Part shown: piece after piece, positions 4,933 to 34,937 of the stretch
How positions within the stretch are numbered: position 1 is the stretch's first letter
Layout of the letters: the number at the start of each line of letters is the position of its first letter
NCBI GenBank assembly: GCA_028293765.1
Contig: JAQGOG010000060.1
Location: 1-55,355, forward strand
From: Gammaproteobacteria bacterium
GTDB lineage: Bacteria > Pseudomonadota > Gammaproteobacteria > Steroidobacterales > Steroidobacteraceae
Direction: 5' to 3'
DNA: 55,355 nucleotides
Translations under genes and position numbers: made by a program
Notes under the pieces: generated by a model
What the model was told of the DNA's origin: nothing
Database searches by the model: none
Seen by the model: the letters and a program-made list of their open reading frames with translations, nothing else

Positions 4933-5590
4933 TCAGGCACTCGGCTTCCACCTTGGGTGCGTGACGAGAAAACGAGCTTCTGGCCAGGGATGAAGGACAC
5001 GCGGTGTGGGTAGGAAATCCGCCGCCAGTCGGATGATGCGGTCCATCGTGGTTGAGTCTTTCTGGCTGCGCTTGCGAAGCGTACGCAGCCATAAGATCTG
5101 CACATGGTGATCGAACGCGACCAGACTTTTGGCGTTAGTCGGCACGGCATGATACGCAAAGTCGCCACGCACCACTTGGGCCAACCATTTTCCCTGCTCG
5201 CGGATTGATTCGTGCATTCGCCGCCGTAGTTCCCCTTTGAGAGCTTTCAACTTCGCTCGCATTCGATCCCGACGCGTCTTCCGCTTCAGTAGGAAGCGGC
5301 CGGCTCGGGAAAGGCCCGCGATATGTGTGAAGCCCAAGAAGTTGAACGTTTCCGGCTTACCAAGTCCCCGTCGGACTCGATCTCGGGCCGCAAAGCGACC
5401 GAACTCGATCAGACGAGTCTTCTCCGGGTGCAACGTCAGCACGAACTGTTCCAACCGCGTGCGCAGATCCGCCAGAAAACGCTGAGCGTCCTCCTCGTGC
5501 TCAAAGCCAGCGACGATATCGTCAGCGAAGCGCACGTACAGAACTTGCCCGCGGGCGTGACGATGTCGCCATCTCTCGGCCCATAGGTTT
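4933..5590 (-). pseudogene. ltrA: Group II intron reverse transcriptase/maturase, C-terminal fragment
   Basis: The frame is open from about 5590 to 4933 and covers the second half of a bacterial group II intron-encoded protein. It starts just before the catalytic box (VRFADDIVAGF), then gives LTLHPEKTRLIEFG and FNFLGFTH, followed by the basic thumb/maturase region. The first ATG within it is at 5535, but homology extends upstream to about 5590 (WRHRHARGQ), where unrelated sequence begins, so the first roughly 200 residues, including the fingers domain, are missing. No intron RNA domain V hairpin was identified. The fragment cannot act as a complete maturase. Confidence 0.85.
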
Positions 5591-12652: not shown

Positions 12653-13003
12653 TCAGTACGAGAGCGCCTTCAGCAATGGAATTTCCGACGCCGCCTTTCC
12701 CTTCGGAACGCTTTGTAGATACGCGAAGATCGCCGCAACATCGCTGTCGGGCATGACGACGGCGGAGTACAGGGGCATTCGCACTCGCGGTTTGCGCAGC
12801 TGCATGATGACCCCCTCATAGGGAATCGGCCCCGGCGCGAGACGCGGGCCCGCGCCGCCTTGGCCGTGTGTGCCGTGGCACTGGTCGCAGCCTGTCGCCG
12901 TGTAAAGCTGTTTGCCGCGTGCGACGTCGTTGGGTTTATCGGCAGCGAAAGCGCCCGTGGCTATCGCGCACACCAGAATCATGGGAACAAAGGCGAATTG
13001 CAT
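12653..13003 (-). CDS. Class I c-type cytochrome, exported
   Basis: The 116-residue precursor has a signal peptide ([16 protein letters not shown], cleavage expected after residue 20). A single haem c site CDQCH lies at residues 39-43, with a candidate distal methionine in RMPLYS and VVMPDSD. This is the layout of a small soluble mono-haem cytochrome c that accepts electrons in the periplasm. The start has GGGAG nine bases upstream and lies 15 bp after the thiamine-diphosphate enzyme gene, so the two are almost certainly co-transcribed. That pairing suggests the cytochrome is the electron acceptor of the exported enzyme. Confidence 0.9.
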
Positions 13004-13018
13004 CGTGGCACTCCCGCG

Positions 13019-15019
13019 TTACCGACCCTGCGAAACCACATCCACCAGCGCCGGCTCGCCGCGCTTCACCGTCGCGATCGCGCGCTTCAGCGCCGGCCCA
13101 AGATCGCGCGGATTCTCGATGGGCCCTTCGCCGTGCAAGCCCAGGCTTTTCGCCATCATGGCGTAGTTGATGTTCGGATTGTCGATCGCACAGCCAATGT
13201 GCACTCGATCGATGCCTCGCTGCCGTCGGTTCGCAATGGCCTGAAGCTGCATGATCTCCGTGTGATAGCAGCGGTTGTTATGCACGATGTAGAGCAGCGG
13301 GATGCGCTCGTGCGCGGCGGTCCAGAGGATGCCTGGCCCGAACATGAGATCGCCGTCCCCAACGAAGCTCACACTGAGCCGCCCATATTTCTGGTTGGCG
13401 AGTGCGGCACCGAGTGTGGCGGGAGCGATGTAGCCGATGCCGGCAGCGCCCCATCCGCCGATGTATTGGTAGTGACGATCCGCAGTCCAAAGCTGCTGCG
13501 ACCAGCTACCCTGCATTCCAGACGGTGAAACGAGCGACCAGTCTTCATTTTTGATCTGCTCGTAAAGCTCCATGTACAGGCGCGCCGTGGAAATGGGGCT
13601 GTCGTCCCACCCATTTGCAGCGGCTTCCTTCGCCATCGCGAACTCTTCGCGATGCGCGTCGGCGAACGCTTTGCCCCGCGCTTCGCGCGCGGACTTGCGA
13701 CCCGAGGGCAACTGACGCCTTACCTCTTCGATCAGCATCGGCAGCGTGGCCTCCGCGTCTGCCTCCATTGCCAGATCGACCTCGGACGTGTACCGCTGCA
13801 GATCCTGGTAATTACCTTTCGGCATCAGCTCGACAGACGAGACGGTGATTCTCCTGGCGCCCGGCTTCAACGCCGACGACGTGTTGCCGCGAGCATCCAT
13901 GCGCGCAAAGAGGGTGAATGGATCCCCCGGCTCGAGGGCGAGCACGACATCCGCATCGCTCATCACCTGCCGCGAGCGACGGCTCTGATTCAGCGGATGG
14001 CGCCACGGGAAGTTCATGCGATTGCCGCTGTCGCAGACGGGCGCTTGCAGCGCTTCCGCTAGCTCTACGAGCAGCTTGAGACCTTCAGGCGTGCGAGCTG
14101 CCCGATCGGCATAGATCACGGGATTTTCGGCATTCGCTAACAGGCGCGCCACTTCCTTTACTGCGCCCTGCTCGCCTGCGGGTGGCGAGATGCGCGGAAG
14201 CTTGGGGATCGGAGGCGCTCGGTCTTTCCCGCCGGGGATCTCGTCCTCCTGCATGAGCGTGTCGACGGCCAGCAGCGTTGGGCCGTACGGCGGCGTCATC
14301 GCGAACTTCCACGCGCGAAAGGCAGACTCGCTGAAGTGCCGGAGCGAGCCAGGCGTGTCATCCCACTTCGTGAAGTCTCGGACCATCGCAGGGCCGTCGC
14401 TTGCGGCGTGCATCCAGTCGACCGCGTTGGGGCGACGTGCAGCGTCGATCCACGCGCCCACCATCATGAAGATGGGCACCCGATCCGCGTAGGCATTGTA
14501 GATCGCCATCGCGCCGTGTTGCAGGCCCACCGTCGTGTGCATCATGCACGCCATCGGTTTGCCTTCGATCTTCGAGTAGCCGTGGGACATCGCGACCGAC
14601 GCTTCTTCATGCATCGTCGTGATGAACCGGAGATTGGGCTGCGTGAGCATGCCGTAGTTGATCACCGCCTCGTGTATGCCCATGAAGGTGTTGCCAGGCG
14701 TAGCGGCGAAGTACTCGATGCCAAGGCTGCGCAGTACGTCGACCATGTAGTCGCCGCCGCAGCTTGAGTACGTGACGGATCGATCGCGAACGCTGCTTTC
14801 TTCAGAGCGAGGCGTCGCGCCCGCGGGACGCGGCAGACTCGCGTCAACTTTCGCGCCACCTGTTGAGGCCGCAGCCGACGAAGCTGAGCCCGGCAAGCCC
14901 TGTTCCGTCTGCGCACTGGCCACAGACGCCGCCGCAGCCACGCCGCCCAACGCCGCACCTTTTAAAAAGTGCCTGCGCCCGACGTGCGCTGCTTTCTCGC
15001 GATCTCCCGGTGCCGCCAT
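13019..15019 (-). CDS. Tat-exported thiamine-diphosphate-dependent enzyme
   Basis: A 666-residue member of the acetolactate synthase/pyruvate oxidase/benzoylformate decarboxylase superfamily. The N-terminus has a twin-arginine signal (GRRHFLKG at 14-21, hydrophobic stretch, AxA site near 36), so the folded enzyme should be moved to the periplasm. The catalytic glutamate of the pyrimidine domain is E138 (MHEEAS), and the diphosphate/metal motif runs from GDG at 554 to NN at 581-582. Substrate residues do not allow a specific name; decarboxylation of a 2-keto acid is expected. Tandem dyad repeats at 15101-15142 lie upstream, and a cytochrome c gene follows after 15 bp. Export of this enzyme class is unusual. 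Confidence 0.85.
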   Translation of the reverse strand: MAAPGDREKAAHVGRRHFLKGAALGGVAAAASVASAQTEQGLPGSASSAAASTGGAKVDASLPRPAGATPRSEESSVRDRSVTYSSCGGDYMVDVLRSLGIEYFAATPGNTFMGIHEAVINYGMLTQPNLRFITTMHEEASVAMSHGYSKIEGKPMACMMHTTVGLQHGAMAIYNAYADRVPIFMMVGAWIDAARRPNAVDWMHAASDGPAMVRDFTKWDDTPGSLRHFSESAFRAWKFAMTPPYGPTLLAVDTLMQEDEIPGGKDRAPPIPKLPRISPPAGEQGAVKEVARLLANAENPVIYADRAARTPEGLKLLVELAEALQAPVCDSGNRMNFPWRHPLNQSRRSRQVMSDADVVLALEPGDPFTLFARMDARGNTSSALKPGARRITVSSVELMPKGNYQDLQRYTSEVDLAMEADAEATLPMLIEEVRRQLPSGRKSAREARGKAFADAHREEFAMAKEAAANGWDDSPISTARLYMELYEQIKNEDWSLVSPSGMQGSWSQQLWTADRHYQYIGGWGAAGIGYIAPATLGAALANQKYGRLSVSFVGDGDLMFGPGILWTAAHERIPLLYIVHNNRCYHTEIMQLQAIANRRQRGIDRVHIGCAIDNPNINYAMMAKSLGLHGEGPIENPRDLGPALKRAIATVKRGEPALVDVVSQGR

Positions 15020-15100
15020 CGTTCATGCCCCCCTACAACAACGCGACGCGAACAGCCCGAGCACTCTACATGGGGCCGGCGTCACGAGATCGCGAAAGTC

Positions 15101-15142
15101 CCGTGAGAATCCATCACGTCACCGTGAGAATCCATCACGTCG
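15101..15142. promoter_or_regulatory. Tandem 21-bp dyad repeats, putative operator
   Basis: Two direct copies of a 21-bp unit (CCGTGAGAATCCATCACGTC plus one base) sit back to back and differ only in the last base. Each contains the inverted repeat CGTGA-N7-TCACG. They lie 82-123 bp upstream of the thiamine-diphosphate enzyme gene. Two dyads one repeat length (two helical turns) apart are a typical arrangement for cooperative binding of a dimeric regulator. The regulator is not identified. Confidence 0.55.
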
Positions 15143-15758: not shown

Positions 15759-16385
15759 TCAATGAACCGTCGCACGACTTCTCCTGGTCTGCCATTTCTT
15801 CTCTCCCGAACGGTGCCACCACATGAGCGCACCTGTGATGGACAAGACACCCGGCCCCAACCCGAGGACCGCCCACAGAATCTTGACCGAAAGCCCAAAA
15901 GCCCGCCCGAAATGCAGACGCACCACAGGCGCGACCACATCATCGCTCACCGCGCTGAACGCGTTAGGAAACGCAAAGTACAGCGCCGTCATCACCCAGA
16001 TCACTATAAAAATCAGAAGCCAGAACCCGAGCGCGTTGTGCAGCTCGCGGTTGAAGCGCCGCCCGCTCACCCGCGCGCGGATCGTGATACTCCGCAACCA
16101 GTAGCCGCGGCGCGGCCACCATAACACCAGTCCGGTGATGAGCATCAGCGCCACGGTCATGGCGCCGATTCCGTTCACCAGGAGGCCGGTACGCCCGCCA
16201 AGCAGGTGATCGTGGAACTCCGCCAGTCCGGTGACGAACGCCGGCTCACATCGCGACGGACAAAACGCCCGGTTCATCTCGAGGCGGAACACGATTGCGC
16301 TCCCCGAGAGGCAGATCGCCAGGATGTACAGCCCGCTGGCCAGGCCCGTCCACAGGTGCACCTGGAAAAGCGCCCTTCGCATCAT
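15759..16385 (-). CDS. PepSY-associated transmembrane protein
   Basis: The 208-residue membrane protein begins ALFQVHLWTGLASGLYILAI, the hallmark first helix of PepSY-associated TM proteins, with further helices GIGAMTVALMLITGLVLWWP, LHNALGFWLLIFIVIWVMTA and a final GALMWWH. Conserved histidines in QVHLWTG, ELHNALG and RLHFGRAFG could bind haem. Larger relatives act in iron/siderophore reduction or in flavin-linked electron transfer across the inner membrane. Its ATG overlaps the stop of the decayed PQQ-dehydrogenase fragment at 16382-16660 as ATGA, so it was once the second gene of an operon with that quinoprotein. Two adjacent ATGs make the exact start uncertain by one residue. Confidence 0.8.
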   Translation of the reverse strand: MMRRALFQVHLWTGLASGLYILAICLSGSAIVFRLEMNRAFCPSRCEPAFVTGLAEFHDHLLGGRTGLLVNGIGAMTVALMLITGLVLWWPRRGYWLRSITIRARVSGRRFNRELHNALGFWLLIFIVIWVMTALYFAFPNAFSAVSDDVVAPVVRLHFGRAFGLSVKILWAVLGLGPGVLSITGALMWWHRSGEKKWQTRRSRATVH

Positions 16386-19802: not shown

Positions 19803-20288
19803 GTGATTCAAGCCTTCAGCGAATGGCTCGCCGCGACGAGCCTGAGCCGGTTGTTCGCAGACCTCGGTTGGTTCGTTCCAACCGTACAGACCATTCACAT
19901 CCTCGCGATCGCGGCAGTCGTCACTCTGCTGAGCATGCTGAACTTTCGTCTGCTGCGGATTACGCGCAGCGGGCCCTCTTTACAGAGCCTTGCGGCTGGC
20001 TACGTCCCCTGGGTCTGGCGTTCGCTGGTAATCCTGCTCGTTTCGGGCATCCTCCTCACGATGACGGAACCGTCGCGCGAGCTGATGAACAACGCCTTCC
20101 GGCTCAAGATGCTGCTGGTCCTGGTCCTTACCGTCCTGACAGTCATCCTGAGGTCCACGTTGCGCCACGATCCCGAGTACTGGACGACCACTCCGCAACG
20201 GCGGCTGCTCGGGGGCACGATTGCCGCCGTCAGCCTGATTCTATGCGTGAGCATCGTGGCCGCCGGCCGGCTCATCGCCTACGTCTGA
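19803..20288 (+). CDS. DUF6644 family membrane protein (IAY-type)
   Basis: The 161-residue protein has four predicted transmembrane helices. Family marks include a conserved His in the first helix (VQTIHILAIAAVVTLLSMLN), a PWVWRS motif before helix 2, EPSRELMNNAFRLKM before helix 3 and a C-terminal AAGRLIAYV. It begins with GTG. A second DUF6644 gene ending in GRWIGF follows after 58 bp, and the same two-type pair is found again at 43834-42852. Function is not known for this family; the conserved membrane histidine suggests a possible haem or quinone role, but this is inference. Confidence 0.8.
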   Translation: MIQAFSEWLAATSLSRLFADLGWFVPTVQTIHILAIAAVVTLLSMLNFRLLRITRSGPSLQSLAAGYVPWVWRSLVILLVSGILLTMTEPSRELMNNAFRLKMLLVLVLTVLTVILRSTLRHDPEYWTTTPQRRLLGGTIAAVSLILCVSIVAAGRLIAYV

Positions 20289-20346
20289 CCTCCATCGCCT
20301 TTCGTCTCCCCCCACGCACACAAGAATTACTCCAAAAGCCGCCCCG

Positions 20347-20835
20347 ATGAGCACACTGGATCTGATGCACTCCCTCGAGCAACTGCCGTTCGCGCAGGCC
20401 ATCTCCGAGTCGACCTGGCTGTTCCCGTTCTTCGAGACGGTTCACGTCCTCGCGCTGACACTCGTCGTCGGCTCGGTGGCGATGATGGACCTGCGTCTGC
20501 TGGGTATCGGCAGCCGCGACCGAACGATCACCGAGCTGACCCGCAGCGTGCTGCCCTGGACCTGGGCCGCCTTCGGTATCGCGGCAATCTGCGGTCTGTT
20601 GCTGTTCAGCTCCAAGGCCGCGACCTACTACGTCAACATTCCATTCCGCATCAAGATCGTGTGCCTGCTGTTCGCCGGCGTGAACATGCTGGTGTTTCAC
20701 TTCGTGACGGCAAGGAACGTTGCCGCCTGGGACAGCGGCAGGACGCCGTCGGCCGCGCGGGTGGCCGGCGTAGTTTCGCTGTCGCTATGGGTGGTGATCG
20801 TCGCGACGGGACGGTGGATCGGGTTCACGACCTGA
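20347..20835 (+). CDS. DUF6644 family membrane protein (WIGF-type)
   Basis: A 162-residue four-helix membrane protein and a paralogue of the preceding gene. It has FFETVHVLALTLVVGSVAMM in helix 1, LPWTWAAFG before helix 2, YYVNIPFRIKI before helix 3, FVTARNVAAWDSG and the C-terminal motif TGRWIGFTT. The closest relative in the window is 42852-43334, which shares RxVAAWD and GRWIGF. This means the two subtypes diverged before the two gene pairs did. It probably forms a hetero-oligomer with the upstream product. A GC-rich inverted repeat at 20855-20899 follows the stop codon. Confidence 0.8.
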   Translation: MSTLDLMHSLEQLPFAQAISESTWLFPFFETVHVLALTLVVGSVAMMDLRLLGIGSRDRTITELTRSVLPWTWAAFGIAAICGLLLFSSKAATYYVNIPFRIKIVCLLFAGVNMLVFHFVTARNVAAWDSGRTPSAARVAGVVSLSLWVVIVATGRWIGFTT

Positions 20836-20912: not shown

Positions 20913-21629
20913 TCAGCCCAAGCCGTCGATTACCCGAAGATCGGCGGCCGAATCCACATAACGCAAGCCAGCCTTCTCCAGCGGCGCGCGCAAGTTGTAC
21001 AAATCGAGACTGAGTTCGCCGGCTGCAAGGCGTATGCGTTTTTCTTCTTCGTTCACGACCCGCGCACGGCTCGCTTTCAGTACTTCACCAGCCTGGGTTC
21101 GCGGAACGATCACGATTCCGTCGTCGTCGGCGATAACCACATCGCCAGGATTCACCAGCATTCCTGCGCAGACGACTGGCACGTTCACCGCACCCACGGT
21201 AGTCTTAACCGTGCCTTGCGCCGACACTGCCTTACTCCAGACTGGAAATCTCATCCCGGTGAGATCACGCACGTCGCGACAGCCGGCGTCGATCACGAGA
21301 CCGACCGCACCGCGGGCACGAAATGAGGTCGCCAGGAGATCGCCGAAATATCCATCCGTCGATGGACCGCTGATTGCCGCGACGACGATGTCCCCCGGTT
21401 TCACCAGTTCGGCCGCAACGTGCAACATCCAGTTGTCTCCCGGATGAAGCAGCACGGTGACCGCACTCGCGCCGAGCCGAGCGCCAGGATAGATTGGCCG
21501 CATATACGCCTGCAGCAAACCGCTGCGGCCCTGAGCCTCGTGGACCGTCGCAACTCCAAGCTCGCCGAGCGCACGGACCGTGGCTTCATCCGCCCTTTCA
21601 ATATTCCTCACTGCGACACTTCTAAACAT
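20913..21629 (-). CDS. ligK: 4-carboxy-4-hydroxy-2-oxoadipate aldolase (RraA family)
   Basis: Class II aldolase of the RraA/HMG-aldolase fold. It is predicted to cleave 4-carboxy-4-hydroxy-2-oxoadipate to pyruvate and oxaloacetate, the last step of gallate and protocatechuate 4,5-cleavage pathways. The start at 21629 has GGAG eight bases upstream and gives 238 residues. Very close matches to the LigK/GalC pattern are [41 protein letters not shown] (D97), [20 protein letters not shown] (R118, D119) and [19 protein letters not shown]. It is divergent from the LysR gene at 21736, the usual position of a pathway-specific activator. An upstream in-frame ATG at 21686 would run into the shared promoter and is less likely. 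Confidence 0.85.
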
Positions 21630-21735
21630 TAGCGTGCTCCGATTCGTGATATACGCATAAAATTTAATGGCTGGGTACGGTAGCATTTATCACGTACCCC
21701 ATTTCCATCCCGTTTTTCGAAGATGGTATGAAAGA
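21630..21735. promoter_or_regulatory. Divergent promoter region of aldolase and LysR genes
   Basis: This 106-bp gap separates the start codons of the LigK-like aldolase and the LysR regulator. It is AT-rich (ATATACGCATAAAATTTAA) and contains the inverted arms CGTGATA (21645-21651) and TATCACG (21688-21694), 36 bp apart, consistent with a LysR recognition site plus a second half-site. ATTCGTGATATACGCAT also fits the loose T-N11-A LysR box. Confidence 0.5.
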
Positions 21736-22719
21736 ATGAAAACGACCGAGAAAGATCCAACCGCCCGCACCGTGACTCACGGAGAGCAGATACTCAGAAA
21801 ACTGCTGCTGACGCGGTTCAGCATGCGACAGCTGGTCGCCTACATTGCCGTGTACGACTATCGCAATATTCAGGCTGCCGCGCACCAGCTGTACTTGGAC
21901 CATTCGACGGTGTCCAAGAGCATCTCCGAGATCGAAGCAGCCCTGAACATGAAGCTCTTTGTCCGGCATACGCGCGGCGTCACACCGACGGCCGCCGCGG
22001 ATGTTTTCTACCGGCATTCCAAGCAGATCGCCAATCAGTGCACCCGGACCGCTGCCGAACTTGCACGAATCACGACCGGCGCGGCAATACACGTCGTGAT
22101 CGGCTGCGTATCCTATCTCGACACCATCGCCATCAAAGCCGTATCACGCTTCAAGCTGCAGCATGACGGCAAGCTGGTCGTTCGACTGTTGTTCGGACAC
22201 ACCGCCGATCTGCACAAGCGCCTCAAGCTCGAGGAAATCGACCTGGTGATCTGCCGCCTGGGCACGCACGCGGAACAACCCGATATTCATGCGGAAGCGG
22301 TTTACGACGTCGGTGACATCATCGTCGTAAGACCCGATCATCCCTGCGCCAGCCAACCGGACATCACACTCAAGGATTTGCTCCAATACCCCTGGATTCT
22401 GCCGCCACCAAACAATCCGTTCAGAAGTCATCTCGAGTCGATGTTCCATCAGGAAGGCCTGCCGCTGCCAAGCGACGTCTTCGAGATCGCGTCAACTTTC
22501 GCGGCCCGCGGTATTCTGCTCGACAATCCCAATGTCGTCTGCACGTTGCCATCCAATAGCATCTCCAGCGATCTTCGACAAGGCTCTCTGTTGCAGTTAA
22601 ACCTGCCGATCAAACTGAGCCAGCCGCCGGTCGGCGTGCTGCACAGACCCGGCGTGACGATGGACGCATACGCCGAGAGTCTCATCCTCTCTCTACGCGA
22701 GACAGTCACGGAACCCTAG
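21736..22719 (+). CDS. LysR family transcriptional regulator
   Basis: Residues 29-90 carry the LysR helix-turn-helix (FSMRQLVAYIAVYDYRNIQA, AAHQLYLDHSTVSKSISEIE, LFVRHTRGVTPTAAA). The rest is a substrate-binding-protein-like effector domain with VIGCVSYLDTIAIKAV, DLVICRLG, VYDVGDIIVVRPDHP and PWILPPPNNPFR. The 327-residue length from the ATG at 21736 is normal once its 20-residue extra leader is allowed for. It is transcribed divergently from a LigK-like aldolase, so by analogy with GalR in gallate clusters it probably activates the ring-cleavage genes in response to an aromatic acid or pathway intermediate. The effector cannot be deduced. Confidence 0.9.
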   Translation: MKTTEKDPTARTVTHGEQILRKLLLTRFSMRQLVAYIAVYDYRNIQAAAHQLYLDHSTVSKSISEIEAALNMKLFVRHTRGVTPTAAADVFYRHSKQIANQCTRTAAELARITTGAAIHVVIGCVSYLDTIAIKAVSRFKLQHDGKLVVRLLFGHTADLHKRLKLEEIDLVICRLGTHAEQPDIHAEAVYDVGDIIVVRPDHPCASQPDITLKDLLQYPWILPPPNNPFRSHLESMFHQEGLPLPSDVFEIASTFAARGILLDNPNVVCTLPSNSISSDLRQGSLLQLNLPIKLSQPPVGVLHRPGVTMDAYAESLILSLRETVTEP

Positions 22720-22750
22720 TCCATTGGCAAAAGTCGCCTGCGGGCTGCGC

Positions 22751-22837
22751 GTCGACCTTCGGTCGACCAAACGCGCTCCCGGCGCGTTTGTGCGGACAGC
22801 GACTCCGTTTTCGCTGGCAAAAGGCGTGACTTTTGCC
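22751..22837. repeat. Cluster of three perfect hairpins between convergent genes
   Basis: Three consecutive palindromes fill the gap between the LysR gene and the LigJ-like gene: GTCGACC-TTC-GGTCGAC (22751-22767), AAACGCGC-TCCCG-GCGCGTTT (22769-22789) and GGCAAAAG-GCGTGA-CTTTTGCC (22816-22837). All stems are perfect, 7-8 bp. GGCAAAAG also occurs once at about 22726-22733. The set resembles a REP/BIME-like palindromic unit and can also act as a bidirectional terminator. Confidence 0.55.
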
Positions 22838-22873
22838 CGGGGCGCGTAGCCGGCTACTCAGGGGACGGTCGCT

Positions 22874-23872
22874 TCAGATCTTGAACAGCTTGCGAGCATT
22901 ATTCTCCAGGATGCTCGCCTTGTCCTCGTCTGACAGCCATTCGATCGCACGAATCTGCGGCACGATGTGGTCGAAAGTGCAGCCCGTATCCGGGTCGATC
23001 GCCGAGCCCACACCAGGGCACTCTGCCCCATACAACACGTGCTCCACACCGACCGTCTTGATCAGCAGTTCGAGCGCGTCCTTGGTGTAGAGAACGGTGT
23101 CGTAGTAAAGCCTGCGCATCCGATCGCGAAACCGGCCATGCTTGCTGCGCACTGACGCCGAATCGAAGCGCCCAAGCTGATACGGTATGGCGCCACCGCC
23201 GTGCGAGATGAGTACCTTGAGCTTCGGAAAATCCTCGAGCACCGCGGAATTCACCAGCCCATAGACAGCCGTCGTCTCTTCGTTGATGAAGTGCAGCGTA
23301 TACGGTTCGCGGTCCGGTTCGCGCGACCCAGTCGCGTGAACGTGCGCCACCACATCCAGTTCCACCAGCTTCTCATACAGGGGATACCAGTACGGATCGC
23401 CGAGCGGTGGTGCCTTGACCCCACCGTTCTCGCCGGGATCGGGGTTCAACACCACGCCCTTGAAGCCCAGCGTCTTCACGCAACGCGTCAACTCCTCGAA
23501 TGTGTCCTCGAGCGGCACGCCGGGCATCTGGGGCAAGCCGCCAATGCCATGGAACTTGTCCGGCATCAGTTCGACGCTGCGGCGAATCAGATCGTTCGTG
23601 ACCGTTGTCCAGCCATGCACGATCTTCGCGGGCTTCTCCGAGTGCATCATCTGGAACGGGCGCGGTGAAATGAACTGCACATCGATCTGGCAGGACTTCA
23701 TGTGATCCAGATGACCCAGCGGCGCCATCTCTTTCGCATTCCAGGCCGCGAGAATCTCCTGATCGGACAGCGTCAATCCGCCGTTGTGGCTTCCCCGATG
23801 TGAAACCAGACCCGCCTTGTAAGCCCAATAGGCCTTAGGCCCTGACAGATGTGCGTGGCAATCGATGATCAT
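22874..23872 (-). CDS. ligJ: LigJ-like 4-oxalomesaconate hydratase (amidohydrolase superfamily)
   Basis: The 332-residue TIM-barrel protein begins MIIDCHAHLSGPK, giving the first metal-binding HxH (H6, H8). It continues with HVHATGS, LKVLISHGGGAIPY (active-site His) and YDTVLYTKDALELL, ending with EHVLYGAECPGVGSA. Length and motif order match the LigJ/OMA-hydratase branch of the amidohydrolase superfamily, which adds water to 4-oxalomesaconate to give the substrate of the LigK aldolase. It is the last gene of a long minus-strand operon and lies 62 bp after the secreted proteins. The nearby aldolase and LigB-type dioxygenase complete a plausible three-step route. Closely related decarboxylases in the superfamily are the main alternative. 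Confidence 0.75.
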   Translation of the reverse strand: MIIDCHAHLSGPKAYWAYKAGLVSHRGSHNGGLTLSDQEILAAWNAKEMAPLGHLDHMKSCQIDVQFISPRPFQMMHSEKPAKIVHGWTTVTNDLIRRSVELMPDKFHGIGGLPQMPGVPLEDTFEELTRCVKTLGFKGVVLNPDPGENGGVKAPPLGDPYWYPLYEKLVELDVVAHVHATGSREPDREPYTLHFINEETTAVYGLVNSAVLEDFPKLKVLISHGGGAIPYQLGRFDSASVRSKHGRFRDRMRRLYYDTVLYTKDALELLIKTVGVEHVLYGAECPGVGSAIDPDTGCTFDHIVPQIRAIEWLSDEDKASILENNARKLFKI

Positions 23873-23934
23873 GGTGCCCTGTACGCCTTTGCCGAATACT
23901 CACTGCAGCGACTCATTCCAGTTCTCCTAAGCGA

Positions 23935-24660
23935 TCACATCTTATGATCGCGAACACAGACATTTTCCTTCAGGTCGTAACCGGGCTGACGCACCAGAGT
24001 AAAGCGGGTGCTCCAGGGCTGCGAGAAGGTCTCCGGATCCGTGAGGGTCAACTCGCCGTTGATCCGGTCAGGACCGTCGAGGGTATAACGTTCTTGAACC
24101 TGTAGCTTTTCACTGTGCGGCAGACCGGAGTAATCCAACCAGGTCTGGTCGTGTTGGCCGATCGTGTCGATCACCAGTGTCTTGCCGTCCCAGTGTCCAG
24201 CCGAATAGCCCAGCCAGTGCGGATCCAGATCGTCATCCCACTTCGGCAGTGGACGGCGCAAGCTGACGATGCGGAACGTGTGGTTGGTCTCATAGACCAG
24301 ATTCACCCGATCCTTATCCTGCGCAATCAACATTGGATACGACGCATAGATGATTCGCGGCACGCCCTGTATCCAGCAATTGGCGCTTGGATCGCTCTTG
24401 GGGTTCGCCTTCAGCGCCGCCTGATTCGCGGTGTACTTGGCCTTGGCGGCCGGCAGCAGCGGCGGCTCTTTACCGTCAGTGGTCTTGAGAGCGCGGATCG
24501 GGGTCGGCATGGCCCACTTGCCGGTCAAATCAGGTGTACCCGGATCGGGACGCTGCGCGGCAGGCAGATGCGACCATGCATCGGAGTCGGCTGCACTGAC
24601 AACGCCGGCCAGCATGGCCGCGGCCACGGCAAGCAACACGGGTTTGAATACGAATTTCAT
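23935..24660 (-). CDS. Exported protein of the W-G-x-TLV family, 241 aa
   Basis: A signal peptide (PVLLAVAAAMLAGVVSAA) precedes a mature beta-rich protein. It shows PDLTGKWAMPTP, NCWIQGVPR, NHTFRIVSLRRPLP, GYSAGHWDGKTLVIDTIG and a terminal RQPGYDLKENVCVRDHKM with a Cys that could pair with that of NCW. The core G-Y-S-x-G-x-W-x-G-x-TLV-I-x-T followed by a K-V-x-E-R strand is shared with 24657-25547, 25585-26535 and the N-terminal half of 45108-47102, so all are one fold. No enzymatic residues are obvious; a periplasmic binding or lipocalin-like role is possible. Its start overlaps the preceding gene's stop as ATGA. Confidence 0.75.
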   Translation of the reverse strand: MKFVFKPVLLAVAAAMLAGVVSAADSDAWSHLPAAQRPDPGTPDLTGKWAMPTPIRALKTTDGKEPPLLPAAKAKYTANQAALKANPKSDPSANCWIQGVPRIIYASYPMLIAQDKDRVNLVYETNHTFRIVSLRRPLPKWDDDLDPHWLGYSAGHWDGKTLVIDTIGQHDQTWLDYSGLPHSEKLQVQERYTLDGPDRINGELTLTDPETFSQPWSTRFTLVRQPGYDLKENVCVRDHKM

Positions 24661-25547
24661 TTGATGATTACCCTACCGTCCGAGGTCGTCTCGACGTTAC
24701 GATTGTTTTCTTCGCAGGAATACTCAGTGATGCCGTCCGCGCCCAATGTGGCCGCCATGTCCGAGCGATAAGGCCAGTGGCGCACTACAGTGAACGCCTT
24801 GGTGAAATGCTCGGGGTCGTCGATGGTGATACGGACGACGAGATCGGTATACCCTTGTGAGGTCTTCTGCTTTTGGAAGCGCTCCGTGACCTTCAGCCTG
24901 GTCCCGTGCGAAGAGTGGAAGTCCAGTGGTGTTTTATCATTGAAGTGGGACGTCTCCACAACGAGAGTATCCCCTTCCCAACGACCCGTTGAATAACCCA
25001 GGAAGCTTTGCGGCGTATCCTGCGGCGCCTCCTTGCGATCCAGGTGAATGATGCGCAGGTTGTGACCGACCTCGTGCAACATCAGGATTTCGCCCGGGAG
25101 GTAGACGAAGCGAACTGGGTAGGGCGCAAAACTCAAGCGCGGCACACCGTGCGGGAAGCACTGGCTCGCTGCGTCGGTGAGCACGGCACCGTTGGCCTCG
25201 GCATCGATCAGATGCTGCGTCCTTTTGGCCTCCTCGGGCGTGAAAGGAGCCCCCTCCCCATTTTCCTGTAACAAGTTGATGTTGCCGCCGGGTAGCTGCC
25301 ACAGACCCGTAAAATCACGCGGCTCTGCGGGCGGGGGCGTAGGCTCCCAGGTCTTGCGCTGTGCCTGATTTCCGCCTGACCTTCTGGCGAGCCACTGCTC
25401 GGCAGTCATCGGAGTCGAGCGTCCCTTGTTATCCGTATCGAGCTGCGCTTGCTCGGCCGGTGTCAGCTTGCGCACCGTGCCTTCCTGTGCAACCACGGTA
25501 GTCGCCATGCCCGCGACTACAAGGACACAAACCAGAAACTGTCTCAT
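24657..25547 (-). CDS. Exported protein of the W-G-x-TLV family, 296 aa
   Basis: A signal peptide (FLVCVLVVAGMATTVVAQ) is followed by a charged helical linker with LTPAEQAQLDTDNKGRS, then KTWEPTPPPAEPRDFTGLWQ and the family domain. The domain shows QCFPHGVPRLSF, LMLHEVGHNLRIIHLDRKEA, GYSTGRWEGDTLVVETSHFN, HSSHGTRLKVTERF and ITEYSCEENNRN. It is about 50 percent identical by eye to the neighbouring 25585-26535 product, so the two arose by tandem duplication. The HEVGHN segment resembles a metalloprotease HExxH but lacks the required spacing and lies in a beta context, so I do not call it a protease. It lies 37 bp downstream of its paralogue in the receptor operon. Confidence 0.75.
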   Translation of the reverse strand: MRQFLVCVLVVAGMATTVVAQEGTVRKLTPAEQAQLDTDNKGRSTPMTAEQWLARRSGGNQAQRKTWEPTPPPAEPRDFTGLWQLPGGNINLLQENGEGAPFTPEEAKRTQHLIDAEANGAVLTDAASQCFPHGVPRLSFAPYPVRFVYLPGEILMLHEVGHNLRIIHLDRKEAPQDTPQSFLGYSTGRWEGDTLVVETSHFNDKTPLDFHSSHGTRLKVTERFQKQKTSQGYTDLVVRITIDDPEHFTKAFTVVRHWPYRSDMAATLGADGITEYSCEENNRNVETTSDGRVIIK

Positions 25548-25584
25548 ATTGCGTCTCCCCTACAGCAGCCGAGGCTTTGGGCTC

Positions 25585-26535
25585 TCACTTGTCCTTCACG
25601 ATGCCTGCGGCATTCGGCTCGTTGCGGTTATTCTCTTCGCAGGAATACTCCGTGATGCCTTCGGCCCCCTCCGTGTTGGCCAGATCAGAGCGGAAGCCTA
25701 ATTTGCGCGATATCGAGAACACCTTGTAAAAGTGATCCGGGTCGTCGATCGTGATCCGAACTGCCAGATCGGTGTGTCCATCGGAAGTCTTTTCCTGGGT
25801 GAAGCGCTCGACGACCTTGAGATTCGGTCCATGCGAGGTGACCGAGTCGAGCCGTGTCCTCTCGTTCATATGAGTAGTTTCAACGACGAGCGTGTCGCCT
25901 TCCCAATGTCCCACTGAGTAACCGAGGAAAGTCCGCGGCGTACCCCTGGGAGCCTCCTTCTGATCCATATGGATGATGCGCACGTTGTGAGCCACCTCGT
26001 GCAGCATCACAATCTCCCCCGGCAAATAAGCAAAACGGATCGGATAGCCGGGGGTGATGAGCAGCCGCGGCGTGCCGTGTGGGAAACACTGGGTCGAAGC
26101 ATCCGTGACCACGTTGCCAGCCTCTTCCGCCTTGATCAACGCCACGGTCGATTTGGCTTCCGCGGCCGTGAAGGGCGCCTGATTACCGTCATCCTGTATC
26201 AGGTCGAGGCGCCCGTCGATCATGGCCCACGTACCGGTAAAGTCCCGCGGGTCCGCCGGTGGCGGCGTGGGCTCCCAGGTCTTGCGCTGCGCCGCCACCT
26301 CTGCAGCGATTTGCTGCGGGGTTTTTTTGCTGCGGCGACCCAAATCAATGGGCGGGATGCGCACGATCTTGTTGTTGATGGCTTGCTGCGCTTGCTGCTG
26401 CTCGAGAGACAACCGCGCAAACGACCGCTGCCCGGTGGCAGCCGGTGCTTCCTGCTGGGCTGCCACGGCGTTCACAAACCCCAACCCCGCGCCGCAAACC
26501 GCAAGGATCAACAATCGCTTCGTGCTCGTCTTCAT
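25585..26535 (-). CDS. Exported protein of the W-G-x-TLV family, 316 aa
   Basis: A signal peptide (RLLILAVCGAGLGFVNAVAA) is followed by a Gln-rich linker and the same domain as the downstream paralogue: TWEPTPPPADPRDFTGTWAM, QCFPHGTPRLLITPG, MLHEVAHNVRIIHMDQKEAP, GYSVGHWEGDTLVVETTHMN, HGPNLKVVERFTQEKTSDGH and ITEYSCEENNRNEP. Conserved Cys in QCF and YSC probably form a disulfide. It is the first gene after the TonB-dependent receptor (121 bp gap), which suggests the secreted trio works with substrates taken up through that receptor. No catalytic residues are apparent. Confidence 0.75.
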   Translation of the reverse strand: MKTSTKRLLILAVCGAGLGFVNAVAAQQEAPAATGQRSFARLSLEQQQAQQAINNKIVRIPPIDLGRRSKKTPQQIAAEVAAQRKTWEPTPPPADPRDFTGTWAMIDGRLDLIQDDGNQAPFTAAEAKSTVALIKAEEAGNVVTDASTQCFPHGTPRLLITPGYPIRFAYLPGEIVMLHEVAHNVRIIHMDQKEAPRGTPRTFLGYSVGHWEGDTLVVETTHMNERTRLDSVTSHGPNLKVVERFTQEKTSDGHTDLAVRITIDDPDHFYKVFSISRKLGFRSDLANTEGAEGITEYSCEENNRNEPNAAGIVKDK

Positions 26536-26656
26536 GCCCGTCTCCGCAAATCTTTACTGCGACACGCACACCGAAGCATGTGCTGCGGTGTCGCTCACCC
26601 GCCTTCGGAAAGGCACCGTTTGGGGACACCCCCAATTAAAGCACCTTACCACCAGA

Positions 26657-29569
26657 TTAGAACTTGTAGTCCACGCCGACGCGGAACACCCGGCCCAGAA
26701 AATTGTACGTGTTTGGGAACGTGGTTAGCTGTGAACCACCCGCAATCGGATCCTCCGCGTTGGTGACGTTCATGATCGCCGCCGTGACACTGCTGCTACT
26801 GTTCCAGGGCATCTGGTAGCGGTACAGCAGGTCGAGAGTGGTGAACGACTTCGACTGCGTACCCGCATTGGTCGCGGGATTCGGAACCTGGAGCGTCATA
26901 GGCGGCAGATAACGCACCGTTGCCAGCAGTGAGTGGGCGCCAGCCATGACCCCCGCCTGAAGGTTCGCGGTGTAATGCGGAATGGGAACACCGAAAGTGC
27001 TGTCGTTATAACGGCCGACGCCGTTGTAAATCACACCGCCCTGCTGCATCAGGTACTCCTGCGTAAGCGTACCGTACAGGCGCATGGGAAACTGCAGACC
27101 AAGCCCGTCCGTCTTCACCCGATACTTGAAGTCATAGTCGAAGCCATGGGTATGCAGAAACCCTTGGTTCGCGTAGGTCGTGGTGAACTGCAGGATGTCG
27201 TTTCCAGACATGCAATTCGCCGGTCGCGGGCCCTGGCCCGGTTTCCACCTGCCCGTAATCTCGCAGATCTCATTTGGAGCACCCGCGGCCAACACGATCC
27301 GCGGATCGGCGATGAACCCGTCCGCCTCATCAGCAGTCAGAATCTGCTGTGCATTCTGTGCTGCAATCAAATCCTTGAAGTTGATGTTCCAGTAATTGAT
27401 GTCCACAGAGAAATTGTCGGTGACGTCCCACGTCACACCGATGTTCCAGTTCCGTGAGGTTTCAGGGTGCAGATTCGGGTTACCCGACAGCAAGCCACGC
27501 GCATTGATGGTATCGCCACCGATCTGCTGGGCTGACGTACCGCCGGTGGATTGGGCAAACATCGACGCGGGCCCCGGGGCTTGGAACGAGGTACCGGCCG
27601 AGCCGCGAATGAACAGGCCCTTGACCGGTGTCCACAGCAGTCCGAGCTTCGGATTGAACCTGCCGAAACTACCCGCACCGTCGTAACTCGTCTTCTCGTA
27701 GCGGCCCGCAAGCTGCACCTCCAGAGCCTTGGCTGGGTACATCACCATTTCGGCGAACGCGGCATTGGTGGCATTGGAGCCCGAGAAATCCGACTGGGCA
27801 AAGGCTGCACCGTTGAATCCCCAGTACCCGATCTGCTTGGAACCGTCATCCCACTGTTGGGAGAAGTCCAATTCGCGCCGCTCCACACCGATGGCAAGGC
27901 CCGTTGTGCCGCCCGGCATGTCCCAGAGCTTGCCGGTAGTGATGGCGTCGTAGGTCTTCAACTGGCCCGAGTCGTGCGTGGTACGCATCCCGATCAGCCA
28001 ATTTGTCAGGGCGGGATTGTTGTAGGCCGGGTCGCCCGGCTTAACCAGCGCCGCGATGGCGAACGGATCCCAGAACTGGCAGGTGTCCTTGCCACGATGC
28101 GCGCCGGTCGGATCGGTGCCTGGTGTGAACGCACACGCCCGCCCACCATAGCCATTCACCGCCAGGCCCACGCGATTGATAATCGTGTCGTGCCCCGCGA
28201 AGTTCGTGTCATTCCACGAGTCACCAAACCCGACCTGCCAGTCAAAGCCCGTGTTGCCGAAGTTGCCAGCGAGGCGACCTGAAACGCGGAAGGTGTCCTG
28301 ACCGCTGGTGCGGATGTCTCCATCCAATCCATCGTCGACCCAAGGTGAGAGAATGCGTCCCTTGTAGAGATAGCCGGTGATATTGGTCTGCCCGTTGACC
28401 GGATTCGGAAAACTCGGGAACATTCTCGCCGTCGCGAGCGCGCCTGGATTATTCGCAGGAACCAGCGGAAACAAACTCGGCGTCGCGGTCGCCGGAGTCA
28501 CATAGCCAAACGGGATTTGATAACGCGTCCGCGCGTATCCGACCTCGAAGTCGCCGGTGATCGTATCGGTGAACTTGTGCGATATCGTCGTCAAGGCGTT
28601 GATGCGCTGTGACTTGGGTTGCAGCGCACGCCCGAGCGCGTTGTAGAGCAGGCACGATGGCGTGCCTGTCTTGTTGACCACGCCATTCGCCAGGCCACTG
28701 GGGCCACCACTACCGAGCTGCGGGCTGCCGCACAGCGGATCCGGAATCGAAGCCGCTACCGCTGAAGGCTGAGTGGCGCCAGCGACCCGATACTGGAATG
28801 TCGCCGGATTGCCAAAACCGGACGTCAGAGCGTACTTCAGACGGTCCGCGCCGTAGCGATCATCGGTGAGCAGGACTTCCGTCGTTTGGTATTCCAAACC
28901 GGCGACTATGCTGGTGGTATCGCCGTGACTGCCCCAGAGCAAGCCGACATTCGTATCGGGCCGGTCGTGAGTCGTATCCTGGATGCGCTGCAGATCCGTT
29001 TTGACCTCGAAGCCGGAAAAATTCCTCTTGGTGATGAAGTTCACGACACCAGCGACCGCGTCGGCGCCATACAGCGCCGAGGAACCGTCGGTAAGCGTCT
29101 CGACTCGATCGATCATGATCGACGGTGCGAGGTTGTTGACGTCGACGTAACCATAGCCTCCATCGGCAATCTGGCGCCCGCCGTTCAGCAGCACCAGCGT
29201 GGCGCCTGCCCCCAGCCCGCGCAGGTTCACCGTGGTCGTCGGCGAGTTGCCTGCATCGACACCACCACCCTGGGTATTGACGGTAGCCATCGACCCCACG
29301 TTCTGCGGCAAGTCCTTGAGACTCTCCGCGACTGAATTGCGCTGCGAGTCGTTCAGGTCTTCGCTACTGAGGACGGTCAGCGGCTGCGGCCGGTCCGCGG
29401 GACGCTTGATGAAAGAGCCGGTGACAACGACCTCCTGTAGGCCATCGTCCGCGTGAGGCGCGGCCTCGGTAGCTGCCTGAGCAAACGCGCTCTTCGGTGT
29501 CATAACGCTGGTTGCCAAGGCACACGTTACGGCGGCCATCACCGCCCTGTTACAGCGAGAATAGATCAT
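26657..29569 (-). CDS. TonB-dependent outer-membrane receptor, 970 aa
   Basis: The start at 29569 has a long G-rich Shine-Dalgarno region and gives a signal peptide (AAVTCALATSVMTPKSAFA). A plug domain follows, starting at GLQEVVVTGSFIKR and including PTTTVNLRGLGAGATLVLLN and LYGADAVAGVVNFITKRNFS. A barrel of about 22 strands ends in the typical terminal aromatic (FRVGVDYKF). The plug pattern VVVTGSxIxR is that of oligomer/aromatic receptors common in Sphingomonadales and Steroidobacter. It probably imports the substrate of the adjacent catabolic genes. It is the second gene of an operon with the decarboxylase homologue upstream (182 bp gap) and the secreted trio and LigJ downstream. An upstream in-frame ATG at 29665 lacks signal-peptide character. 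Confidence 0.9.
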   Translation of the reverse strand: MIYSRCNRAVMAAVTCALATSVMTPKSAFAQAATEAAPHADDGLQEVVVTGSFIKRPADRPQPLTVLSSEDLNDSQRNSVAESLKDLPQNVGSMATVNTQGGGVDAGNSPTTTVNLRGLGAGATLVLLNGGRQIADGGYGYVDVNNLAPSIMIDRVETLTDGSSALYGADAVAGVVNFITKRNFSGFEVKTDLQRIQDTTHDRPDTNVGLLWGSHGDTTSIVAGLEYQTTEVLLTDDRYGADRLKYALTSGFGNPATFQYRVAGATQPSAVAASIPDPLCGSPQLGSGGPSGLANGVVNKTGTPSCLLYNALGRALQPKSQRINALTTISHKFTDTITGDFEVGYARTRYQIPFGYVTPATATPSLFPLVPANNPGALATARMFPSFPNPVNGQTNITGYLYKGRILSPWVDDGLDGDIRTSGQDTFRVSGRLAGNFGNTGFDWQVGFGDSWNDTNFAGHDTIINRVGLAVNGYGGRACAFTPGTDPTGAHRGKDTCQFWDPFAIAALVKPGDPAYNNPALTNWLIGMRTTHDSGQLKTYDAITTGKLWDMPGGTTGLAIGVERRELDFSQQWDDGSKQIGYWGFNGAAFAQSDFSGSNATNAAFAEMVMYPAKALEVQLAGRYEKTSYDGAGSFGRFNPKLGLLWTPVKGLFIRGSAGTSFQAPGPASMFAQSTGGTSAQQIGGDTINARGLLSGNPNLHPETSRNWNIGVTWDVTDNFSVDINYWNINFKDLIAAQNAQQILTADEADGFIADPRIVLAAGAPNEICEITGRWKPGQGPRPANCMSGNDILQFTTTYANQGFLHTHGFDYDFKYRVKTDGLGLQFPMRLYGTLTQEYLMQQGGVIYNGVGRYNDSTFGVPIPHYTANLQAGVMAGAHSLLATVRYLPPMTLQVPNPATNAGTQSKSFTTLDLLYRYQMPWNSSSSVTAAIMNVTNAEDPIAGGSQLTTFPNTYNFLGRVFRVGVDYKF

Positions 29570-29751
29570 CCCCCCTCCCCCTGAGCCTAGTGATCGAACG
29601 GTCCGGCGCTGTTGTACAGCATCTACATAAGAATTATTCAGCCGGCGGAGTCTTCCAAAAAGCACTCATGCATCGGTATGGAACATGGATATTGCGGCGT
29701 GGCGTTTCTCCCATAACGAATTTTCCGTGGCTCCCCACGGCGCGGCTCTGT

Positions 29752-30741
29752 TCAGGTCTTGGGCAGGTCGAGATTGAAGAGCTTTATCGCGTTGCCACGG
29801 CCGATCTTGCGCCGTTGCGCATCGCTGACGACCCGACTCGAGTCGTACCAGGATGAGGCATCTTCCATCTTCTCGAACGGATAATCTGCCGAAAAGTAGA
29901 CCTTGTTTTCATCGAGCACATCGAGCGTGCAGCGGAATGCCGGATCGTTGAAATTGCCGCTCGTGGTGATGTGGAAGTGATCGCGGAAGTAGTCGCCGAG
30001 CGGTCGCTGGCCACGATACTCGCGGCGCGAAAAGCGCATGCGCGCATCGATGCGCCAAAGGCCGAATGGAATATTCTCGCCGAGGTGGCCGATGCAGATG
30101 CGCAGATTCGGGAAATCATCGAAGAGCCCCGAGCCACACAGCCGCAAAGAATGAATCGATGTTTCCACCGCAAAACCCCACGGCGCGCTCATCAGCCAGG
30201 GGTGGCCCGCGTAGTTCTGTGCCTGCGATGGAATCTGCATGCGCGGATGCAGGTAGAACGGCACGTCGAGCTTCGACACCGTTGCCCAGAAAGTCCGGTA
30301 CTCCGGCAAGTCGTAGTATTTGGCATTGTCCTCGGTACCCACCTGCTGGAATCCGTTCACCAGTGCGCCCTTGAAACCCAGCTCATTCACGCAGCGCTCC
30401 AGCTCGCGGGCAGCCACATCAGGGTCATGCATCGGCAACGCGGCCAACGCCGCATAGCGCTTCGGGTGCCTCGCAACGGCATCCGCCATCGCTTCATTGG
30501 CCTTCTGCGCGATCTGCAGCGCCTGCTTCGGGTCCGGAATTCTTTGTACACCCGGGGCATTCAGCGAGAGGAGCGCGAACTCGATGCCCGCTGCATCCAT
30601 GTGGCCGAGACGTTCGGAATCCAGATCGAGCAATTGTCGCGTGAAGTCATCCCAGGCACCGGAATCACCTGCAAAACTGCGCGACTGCTCGAGAGTATCC
30701 TCGATTGCAAAATGCTCTTCGAAGGCAATTTTCCCATCCAT
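29752..30741 (-). CDS. Hydroxybenzoate decarboxylase of the gamma-resorcylate type (amidohydrolase superfamily)
   Basis: The 329-residue TIM-barrel metalloenzyme closely resembles 2,6-dihydroxybenzoate (gamma-resorcylate) and 2,3-dihydroxybenzoate decarboxylases. All metal and catalytic positions are seen: E8 and H10 (FEEHF), H165 (FYLHPR), H219 (CIGHLGEN) and D286 (FSADYPFE). Other family blocks are LLSLNAPGVQRIPD, LGFKGALVNGFQQ and HITTSGNF. These enzymes remove CO2 from ortho-hydroxylated benzoates without cofactor other than a divalent metal. The precise substrate is not readable. It opens the minus-strand receptor operon and is divergent from the MFS transporter gene at 30992, so import and decarboxylation are likely co-regulated from the 250-bp gap. 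Confidence 0.85.
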   Translation of the reverse strand: MDGKIAFEEHFAIEDTLEQSRSFAGDSGAWDDFTRQLLDLDSERLGHMDAAGIEFALLSLNAPGVQRIPDPKQALQIAQKANEAMADAVARHPKRYAALAALPMHDPDVAARELERCVNELGFKGALVNGFQQVGTEDNAKYYDLPEYRTFWATVSKLDVPFYLHPRMQIPSQAQNYAGHPWLMSAPWGFAVETSIHSLRLCGSGLFDDFPNLRICIGHLGENIPFGLWRIDARMRFSRREYRGQRPLGDYFRDHFHITTSGNFNDPAFRCTLDVLDENKVYFSADYPFEKMEDASSWYDSSRVVSDAQRRKIGRGNAIKLFNLDLPKT

Positions 30742-30991
30742 ATCGATCCTCTAGTGAAATCGTCGTGCGCACCTGACGGAGCAGTCCATGATCCATGTGA
30801 TGTCGGGTTTTCACAATGGCGTTTTCCCCATGACGCAGTTCCAAACGTGCACACTAACCCCACGTGCCGCTCGCCTAAACTCACGCGGCTGGCGCATACC
30901 GTTGCTGCCGAAAACAGGCGCTGTGGGTATGCTGCACGCATAAGGTCGCGCAGACAGGCAGCAATTGAACAGAAGTTTCATAAAGGGGGGT
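30742..30991. promoter_or_regulatory. Divergent promoter region, decarboxylase and MFS genes
   Basis: This 250-bp gap lies between oppositely transcribed genes and must hold both promoters. I could not identify a dyad or repeat strong enough to name. The bases just before 30992 contain GGGGG as ribosome-binding site of the transporter gene. Confidence 0.4.
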
Positions 30992-32290: not shown

Positions 32291-32368
32291 CGCGCGCGCA
32301 ATCCCATCGTCCACATTATCCGGCTGTGAGAAATCATACCTCCACAGCCTTCTTCCACTGAGGGATCC

Positions 32369-33019
32369 ATGAACGACCCCAATCTCCAACGCGCAGCGCA
32401 CCTCGATACCGCGACGCTCAGCGATGCGATGGACAAGCTCGGCATCGCCGGGCAGTGCCTCGGCATCAAGCCGCGCGACCACTCGTTTCGAATGACCGGA
32501 CGTGCGTACACGATTCTTTACGGTCCGCTCGATGCTGAAAAGCCGGGAACGGTCGGAGACTACATCGACGATCTGCCACCTGGCACCGTAGTTGTGCTCG
32601 ACAACGGCGGCCGCGAAAATGCCACCGTCTGGGGAGACATCCTGACCGCCGTCGCACGCTATCGGAAACTGGCAGGCACGGTCATCGATGGGGCGAACCG
32701 TGATGTTCACCTATGTTTATCGCTCGGCTACCCTATCTACAGCAGAAGCTATTCAATGCGCACCGGCAAGGACCGCGTGCAGGTGGACGCCGTGCAGGTG
32801 CCGGTCACCATTGGTGATGCGCGTGTACTGCCAGGCGATCTGCTGCGCGGCGATGCCGATGGCGTCGTCGTGATCCCACGCTCACGCGAGGAAGAAGTCC
32901 TCGAGATTGCCGAGCACATCGAGGCGTCCGAGCAGCAGATTCGCAATCTCGTGGAGTCGGGCCTCAGCCTGCGCGAGGCGCGCGAGAAATTGCAGTACCA
33001 CAACCTTCAGTCAAAATAG
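32369..33019 (+). CDS. RraA family aldolase/decarboxylase-like protein
   Basis: The 216-residue protein with the RraA/HMG-aldolase fold begins with LDTATLSDAMDKLGIAG, has GDYIDDLPPGTVVVLDNGG and the catalytic layout G-D (89-90, TVWGDIL) then VIDGANRDV (R111, D112). It ends with VLPGDLLRGDADGVVVIPR and a helical tail. Retention of Asp90, Arg111 and Asp112 suggests metal-dependent aldol or keto-acid decarboxylase activity rather than an RNase E inhibitor role. It is followed immediately, with no spacing, by another RraA gene. The pair may encode two subunits of one enzyme or two enzymes acting on different 4-hydroxy-2-keto acids. Confidence 0.85.
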   Translation: MNDPNLQRAAHLDTATLSDAMDKLGIAGQCLGIKPRDHSFRMTGRAYTILYGPLDAEKPGTVGDYIDDLPPGTVVVLDNGGRENATVWGDILTAVARYRKLAGTVIDGANRDVHLCLSLGYPIYSRSYSMRTGKDRVQVDAVQVPVTIGDARVLPGDLLRGDADGVVVIPRSREEEVLEIAEHIEASEQQIRNLVESGLSLREAREKLQYHNLQSK

Positions 33020-34716: not shown

Positions 34717-34836
34717 GAGATTCCACTTTGATGTGCCCCGATCAGTGAGGCCTGCCTGCGCCGGAAGCGATGACCGAAGAGCAGGATCTTAACAGTCTAC
34801 AGAAGCTCGAGAAACTCCGGAACGGATGTGCGCACA

Positions 34837-34869: not shown

Positions 34870-34937
34870 ACCGCAGAGCACGCCATGTACATTCCTCCTC
34901 TACGTCGACATACGCCGTTTATCGAGAGAGCGATGCC

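Follow-up and report, generated by a model that had tools for sequence, protein, structure and literature searches.

Thiamine diphosphate (ThDP) chemistry is generally taken as cytoplasmic. The locus described here, at positions 12,653 to 15,142 of a 55,355-nucleotide contig from a gammaproteobacterium of the Steroidobacteraceae (hereafter the window, meaning that whole stretch of DNA), raises the question of what a ThDP-dependent enzyme with an export signal might do beside a c-type cytochrome. The initial annotation read the pair as an oxidative 2-oxo acid or acyloin enzyme that is folded with its cofactor inside the cell, exported, and passes electrons to its own cytochrome.

The ThDP gene (13019..15019, minus strand) encodes a Tat-signal protein of 666 aa. 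A predicted Tat signal peptide covers residues 1 to 36 (14912..15019, minus strand); the consensus RRHFLK named in the annotation is present at residues 15 to 20, an AxA-type site was judged by eye to lie near residue 36, and HVGRRHFLKGAALGGVAAAA close to the N terminus is a textbook twin-arginine signal. Pfam returned the N, M, and C domains of TPP_enzyme in order, all above cutoff (72.7, 46.9, and 85.3 bits), and gave only these, with no Fe-S cluster domain in the protein. The conserved E138 and GDG...NN motifs named in the annotation held up in an alignment of 25 homologues, in which E138, G556, D557, N581, and N582 were invariant and G554 and D555 were at least 90% conserved. We take E138 to be the catalytic Glu and G554 D555 G556 ... 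N581 N582 to be the GDG-x24-27-NN motif.

The structure model of the enzyme (pLDDT 76.7, falling below 50 for nearly all of residues 1 to 78, ahead of the catalytic part) places its fold in the benzoylformate decarboxylase (BFD)/acetohydroxyacid synthase group. Among the matches listed, the closest solved relatives were benzoylformate decarboxylases, with acetohydroxyacid synthase and glyoxylate carboligase as near ties; since the listed solved matches are just 17 to 23% identical over the aligned part, the substrate is not readable from them. Benzoylformate decarboxylase and its relatives are non-oxidative. The window protein did not pass the BFD model (NF005485, 137 bits versus a cutoff of 493), it differs from that group in its Tat signal and cytochrome partner, and in the alignment no His lies opposite what we take to be His281 of BFD, which falls in a gap-rich stretch. 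The same genome has a separate BFD-like gene, of which a 208-aa piece scored 369.9 bits. The best-scoring model for the window protein, ten relatives, and a Caballeronia protein was NF006203 (PRK08327, thiamine pyrophosphate-requiring protein), and this was not passed either: the window protein reached 241.5 bits versus a cutoff of 456, and the other proteins, Tat-less relatives included, also stayed below 456 (highest, 270.4; three of the ten relatives were pieces of 309 to 362 aa).

The second gene (12653..13003, minus strand) encodes a predicted exported mono-haem c-type cytochrome of 116 aa with one CXXCH motif, an RMP distal-Met-like motif, and matches to Pfam Cytochrome_CBB3 and Cytochrom_C. 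By its CXXCH, predicted export signal, and distal Met, it is a class I cytochrome c as judged from sequence. The ThDP gene comes first, and the 15-bp spacing reported in the initial annotation was confirmed (13004..13018, minus strand); so short a gap is consistent with a single transcript for both genes. A second copy in the same genome (60% identity, contig C32) has the same arrangement and the same 15-bp gap, with a LuxR-type regulator gene before it, an AraC-type regulator gene after its cytochrome, and a benzoylformate-decarboxylase-like gene about 3 kb away (L138 9209-10819). TatC and CcmF are encoded in the window genome.

Upstream of the pair, two tandem 21-bp direct repeats (15101-15121 and 15122-15142), 95% identical, each hold a GTGA-N7-TCAC dyad and lie 81 bp from the ThDP start codon. 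The tandem dyads described by the annotation are thus real as two repeats upstream of the pair, but they do not stand as a conserved part of the system: when about 300 upstream bases were scanned per gene, the tandem arrangement was found in the window and in no other of the scanned family genes, a single dyad being present upstream of L105. We therefore dropped the dyads as a system component and regard them as a candidate operator of this locus only.

The annotation had proposed a survey of Tat-bearing homologues for the cytochrome neighbour. Merging identical copies reduced 135 pooled ThDP genes to 121 distinct ones, 112 of which scored above 350 bits to the family. A Tat signal was found in 106 of these 112, with 18 N termini that failed a stricter filter judged by eye; the remaining six are L022 (RG for RR), L028 and L085 (genes running to the contig end), L057 (with an apparent disturbance of the N-terminal frame), and L115 and L116, which belong to the Tat-less relatives. 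A small exported cytochrome c gene follows on the same strand in 86 of the 106 members having at least 500 bp of downstream sequence, pairing being defined as a haem motif within 700 bp downstream of the ThDP gene on that strand. Applied to 516 other genes at the same 80 loci (at least 200 aa, from our own heuristic gene calls), this rule gave 15 with a downstream cytochrome, so the adjacency exceeds chance. None of 11 controls, comprising five other ThDP genes of the window's own genome and six Tat-less relatives, had a cytochrome downstream. Most homologues thus keep both features, and the exported-pair reading survives well.

Across the 115 genes with enough sequence, 83 had both the Tat signal and the cytochrome, 17 the Tat signal only, 3 the cytochrome only, and 12 neither (Fisher P = 2e-6, which is merely descriptive because the genes are related). 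The three with the cytochrome only are L022, L028, and L057, whose N termini are variant, cut, or disturbed. For the 17 Tat-bearing members (of 100 with enough sequence) that had no same-strand cytochrome within 700 bp downstream, several arrangements were seen. L070 and L086 have a cytochrome nearby on the opposite strand, L062 has one farther downstream, and in L036, L043, L044, and L055 the slot holds a gene of 486 to 493 aa (Abhydrolase_10 in L036), a replacement that may reveal a non-oxidative branch or a substrate.

Without a limit on flank length, the loci gave 92 cytochromes, whose start codons were set by script. The gap to the ThDP gene has a median of 10 bp and is at most 147 bp in 90 of the 92 pairs (306 and 325 bp in the other two). 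Eighty-five of these cytochromes are mono-haem and seven are di-haem, 89 of the 92 have a hydrophobic N terminus, and the MP motif is conserved in the consensus of 81. The cytochromes of L081 and L090 have a long extension at the C terminus, which by eye resembles a cupin. Adjacency persists in different phyla and in members as distant as about 40% enzyme identity (L012 and L014).

A FastTree phylogeny of the 121 ThDP rows contains one clade of 110 rows with 99% local support, which holds all 106 Tat-bearing genes and four with cut or variant N termini. The six Tat-less relatives fall outside it, and none of them has the cytochrome. The branch order among the Tat-less rows is unsure, since FastTree gave a long-branch warning for them and several forks were drawn open. 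Inside the clade the early branches all carry the cytochrome, and the presence pattern requires 12 changes; on the simplest reading, the Tat signal and the cytochrome entered the family together and adjacency was lost later in places. Enzyme and cytochrome distances over 81 complete mono-haem pairs correlated with a Mantel r of 0.763, compared with a null maximum of 0.246 in 2000 permutations. This co-divergence shows joint inheritance of enzyme and cytochrome, not contact between them. Together with the lack of any other widely shared neighbour, it supports the wording "its own cytochrome" in the initial annotation.

We also searched for genuine fusions of the two proteins. None was found with the cytochrome part of a joined query (193 candidates, 2 matches), a search that reaches only cytochromes sharing short words with the L041 cytochrome. 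P0125, which joins ThDP and cytochrome parts, was rejected as a frameshift artifact because its family match ends at about residue 489, the sequence beyond that point is out of frame, and the cytochrome's signal peptide is still present inside it; in P0126 the cytochrome is joined to a different domain (PF13709).

The family is large. A protein search gave 7477 relatives at E ≤ 1e-60 among the 8000 candidates scored. Of the 120 database proteins listed, 114, counting that of the window, show RR.[FLMIVYW] within their first 60 residues; the other six start late in the sequence and may still have a Tat signal. Where the listed members have a name, it is mostly acetolactate synthase large subunit or thiamine pyrophosphate-dependent enzyme, and one is named solely after its Tat signal. 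Scanning GTDB species genomes gave 342 stretches that encode a relative, and the best 80 of these were used, a set biased to close relatives because only the top matches were kept. Family members are mostly from Acidobacteriota (MAGs), with others from Alpha-, Beta-, and Gammaproteobacteria and Eremiobacterota, and one record among the best 80 of the 342 is labelled Acidimicrobiia.

In an even draw of 297 Acidobacteriota genomes, at least 12 hold the family at E ≤ 1e-150, a count that includes two carriers known beforehand (G332, the centre, and G334) and that may be low, as up to four candidates were scored per genome. Sixteen of the 17 loci from this sample are Tat positive (L131 by the stricter filter). 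The cytochrome is present at 14 of these 16, counting that of L124, which follows after 325 bp; the Tat-less locus has none. Of 274 genomes sampled from the class to which the window belongs, 1, the genome of the window itself, has the family at E ≤ 1e-100, and the family is therefore accessory there. A search of relatives found 5 of 60 genomes positive at E ≤ 1e-80, again with the window's own included, and nine genomes chosen as carriers have 1 to 7 matches each at E ≤ 1e-60, a figure that also counts Tat-less relatives. This patchy distribution resembles that of accessory catabolic genes.

Nine plasmid records match at E ≤ 1e-60, and three were examined. On Caballeronia zhejiangensis p3, a Tat-signal ThDP protein has an annotated di-haem c-type cytochrome 8 bp downstream, in a neighbourhood with a ring-hydroxylating dioxygenase, PdxA, and an MHS transporter. 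In Novosphingobium sp. KACC 22771, two cytochrome c open reading frames in a row follow a Tat-signal ThDP gene (L135 9686-10398). No annotated cytochrome lies within 5 kb of the ThDP gene of Phyllobacterium zundukense (34% identity), which adjoins a tripartite tricarboxylate transporter.

We then considered which other genes accompany the pair. When the genes of the window and of the 80 loci were clustered, with antisense and out-of-frame shadow clusters put aside by eye, no third widely shared gene emerged beside the pair, as no other gene-like cluster exceeded 8 of 81 loci. Among 112 same-strand neighbours picked from 335 listed, the commonest Pfam family was MFS_1 (9), and alpha/beta hydrolases and alcohol dehydrogenases came next, a mix like that of catabolic islands; this tally rests on the first 25 of 108 families. 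Zinc alcohol dehydrogenase reached 5 at most, and aldehyde dehydrogenase and PQQ repeats 2 each. No common pathway emerged from these 112 neighbours and ten genes near the closest relatives. The neighbourhoods of the pair give a hint of aromatic or carboxylate breakdown.

In the window, positions 20913-34716 encode a LigB-type protein, three RraA-like and two Amidohydro_2 proteins, a LysR regulator, a TonB receptor, and an MFS protein, a set which we take to resemble a protocatechuate/gallate 4,5-cleavage island. It is a possible source of 2-oxo acids; the cluster starts at a distance of about 6 kb and is separated from the pair by other genes. Between the two lie genes for a PepSY-TM protein (15759-16385) and two DUF6644-type membrane proteins (19803-20835, the first just under cutoff). 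Elsewhere, 34770-39761 encodes a DUF6152 protein followed by a DUF1552 protein whose start is Tat-like and a CXXCH-bearing PSD/DUF1592 protein, a combination usual in planctomycetes. An open reading frame with an FADD-type motif at 4933-5535 looks by eye like what is left of a group II intron reverse transcriptase.

Taken as a whole, we think it fairly probable that the enzyme is a periplasmic ThDP-dependent 2-oxo-acid or acyloin dehydrogenase with its own cytochrome c as electron acceptor. The enzyme would fold in the cytoplasm with ThDP and Mg, be exported by Tat as a folded oligomer, and in the periplasm cleave its substrate, a 2-oxo acid or else an acyloin or a diketone. The partner cytochrome c would oxidize the electron-rich ThDP enamine in one-electron steps, with release of the free carboxylate (plus CO2), and electrons would pass on to cytochrome c oxidase. 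The sequences themselves establish the genes, the Tat signals, the ThDP motifs, and the conserved, co-diverging pair; from these we infer the export, the oxidative reaction, the direct electron transfer, and the absence of a flavin. Several points weigh against this reading: 17 of 100 Tat-bearing members lack the adjacent cytochrome, the fusion search gave no genuine case that would support contact, the nearest named enzymes are non-oxidative, and the solved matches are distant. The cytochrome is taken as the acceptor because it is the sole widely shared partner, and the enzyme group by itself makes a 2-oxo acid the most likely substrate. Tentatively, the proposal could be carried further, to an exported ThDP dehydrogenase free of flavin and iron-sulfur clusters that passes electrons from the enamine directly to haem c, one at a time, in many soil bacteria, with several paralogues per genome for different substrates.

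The proposal can be set beside several known systems. PoxB is cytoplasmic and uses FAD and quinone; like it, the window enzyme is proposed to feed respiration by ThDP-dependent oxidative decarboxylation, and it differs in its Tat signal and cytochrome c. The 2-oxoacid:ferredoxin oxidoreductases oxidize the ThDP intermediate in one-electron steps. This mode of oxidation would be common to both, whereas the window enzyme is without an Fe-S domain and its acceptor would be haem c; PMC5020499 names TPP and a 4Fe-4S cluster in those oxidoreductases. According to PMC8159350, the ThDP enamine gives single electrons to various acceptors, which makes direct transfer to haem chemically reasonable. Pnao and NicA2 are described in PMC9396064 as catabolic enzymes that use an operon-encoded cytochrome c, CycN. 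These likewise pair an oxidase-like family with an operon cytochrome c, but they are flavin amine oxidoreductases and not ThDP enzymes. A literature search, with most subscription journals and bioRxiv outside its coverage, turned up no description of an exported ThDP enzyme with a cytochrome among the papers listed, in agreement with the earlier remark that no described system of this type is known; in PMC8880074, PMC3195088, and PMC6050957, several of the relevant terms occur in mutually unrelated mentions.

Other explanations must be weighed against this one. The enzyme could be a periplasmic non-oxidative ThDP lyase that yields an aldehyde, the cytochrome serving a separate periplasmic dehydrogenase that oxidizes the product. 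The benzoylformate decarboxylases closest to it among the listed solved structures would suit such a role, as would the two aldehyde dehydrogenases and two PQQ-repeat proteins among the 112 neighbours; however, no dehydrogenase family is common beside the pair (at most 5 of 112), whereas the cytochrome is, and the enzyme and cytochrome co-diverge, so that we regard a lyase as unlikely. Less likely still is a flavoprotein whose middle domain binds FAD as in pyruvate oxidase, with electrons running from ThDP through FAD to cytochrome c. The near ties in the fold matches, acetohydroxyacid synthase and glyoxylate carboligase, bind FAD, and the window enzyme does have the TPP_enzyme_M domain. Against this, it fell far below the pyruvate oxidase model (NF006377, 66.8 bits versus a cutoff of 742, not passed), and what we take to be the FAD motif of that group is not visible after FPWRHP, in an alignment that contained no proven FAD binder.

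The adjacency might also be a passive operon habit, the cytochrome being a general periplasmic carrier and the ThDP enzyme doing unrelated work. This would accommodate the 17 Tat-bearing members with no cytochrome in place and the four loci whose slot holds a 486- to 493-aa gene, but it sits poorly with an adjacency that spans phyla and reaches about 40% identity at a median gap of 10 bp, and with its absence from all six Tat-less relatives; we consider it quite improbable. That the protein is not exported at all, or is inactive as a ThDP enzyme, seems hardly credible given a twin-arginine motif with a hydrophobic stretch in 106 of 112 members, the invariant E138, and the retained GDG and NN motifs.

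The periplasmic dehydrogenase with its own cytochrome thus remains our preferred reading. We regard the system as a novel setting and a novel partner for an established enzyme superfamily; should direct transfer from ThDP to haem be shown, it would amount to more. If true, a conserved exported ThDP branch tied to cytochrome c would give organic acids a respiratory entry that bypasses CoA, NAD, and uptake, and Tat would be exporting a ThDP holo-enzyme. Since the family is large and its named members, among those listed, mostly bear acetolactate synthase or generic thiamine pyrophosphate enzyme names, there is probably a respiratory enzyme under a wrong assignment in many soil genomes. The recurrence of the pair in many soil bacteria suggests an undescribed route by which electrons from organic acids enter respiration outside the inner membrane.
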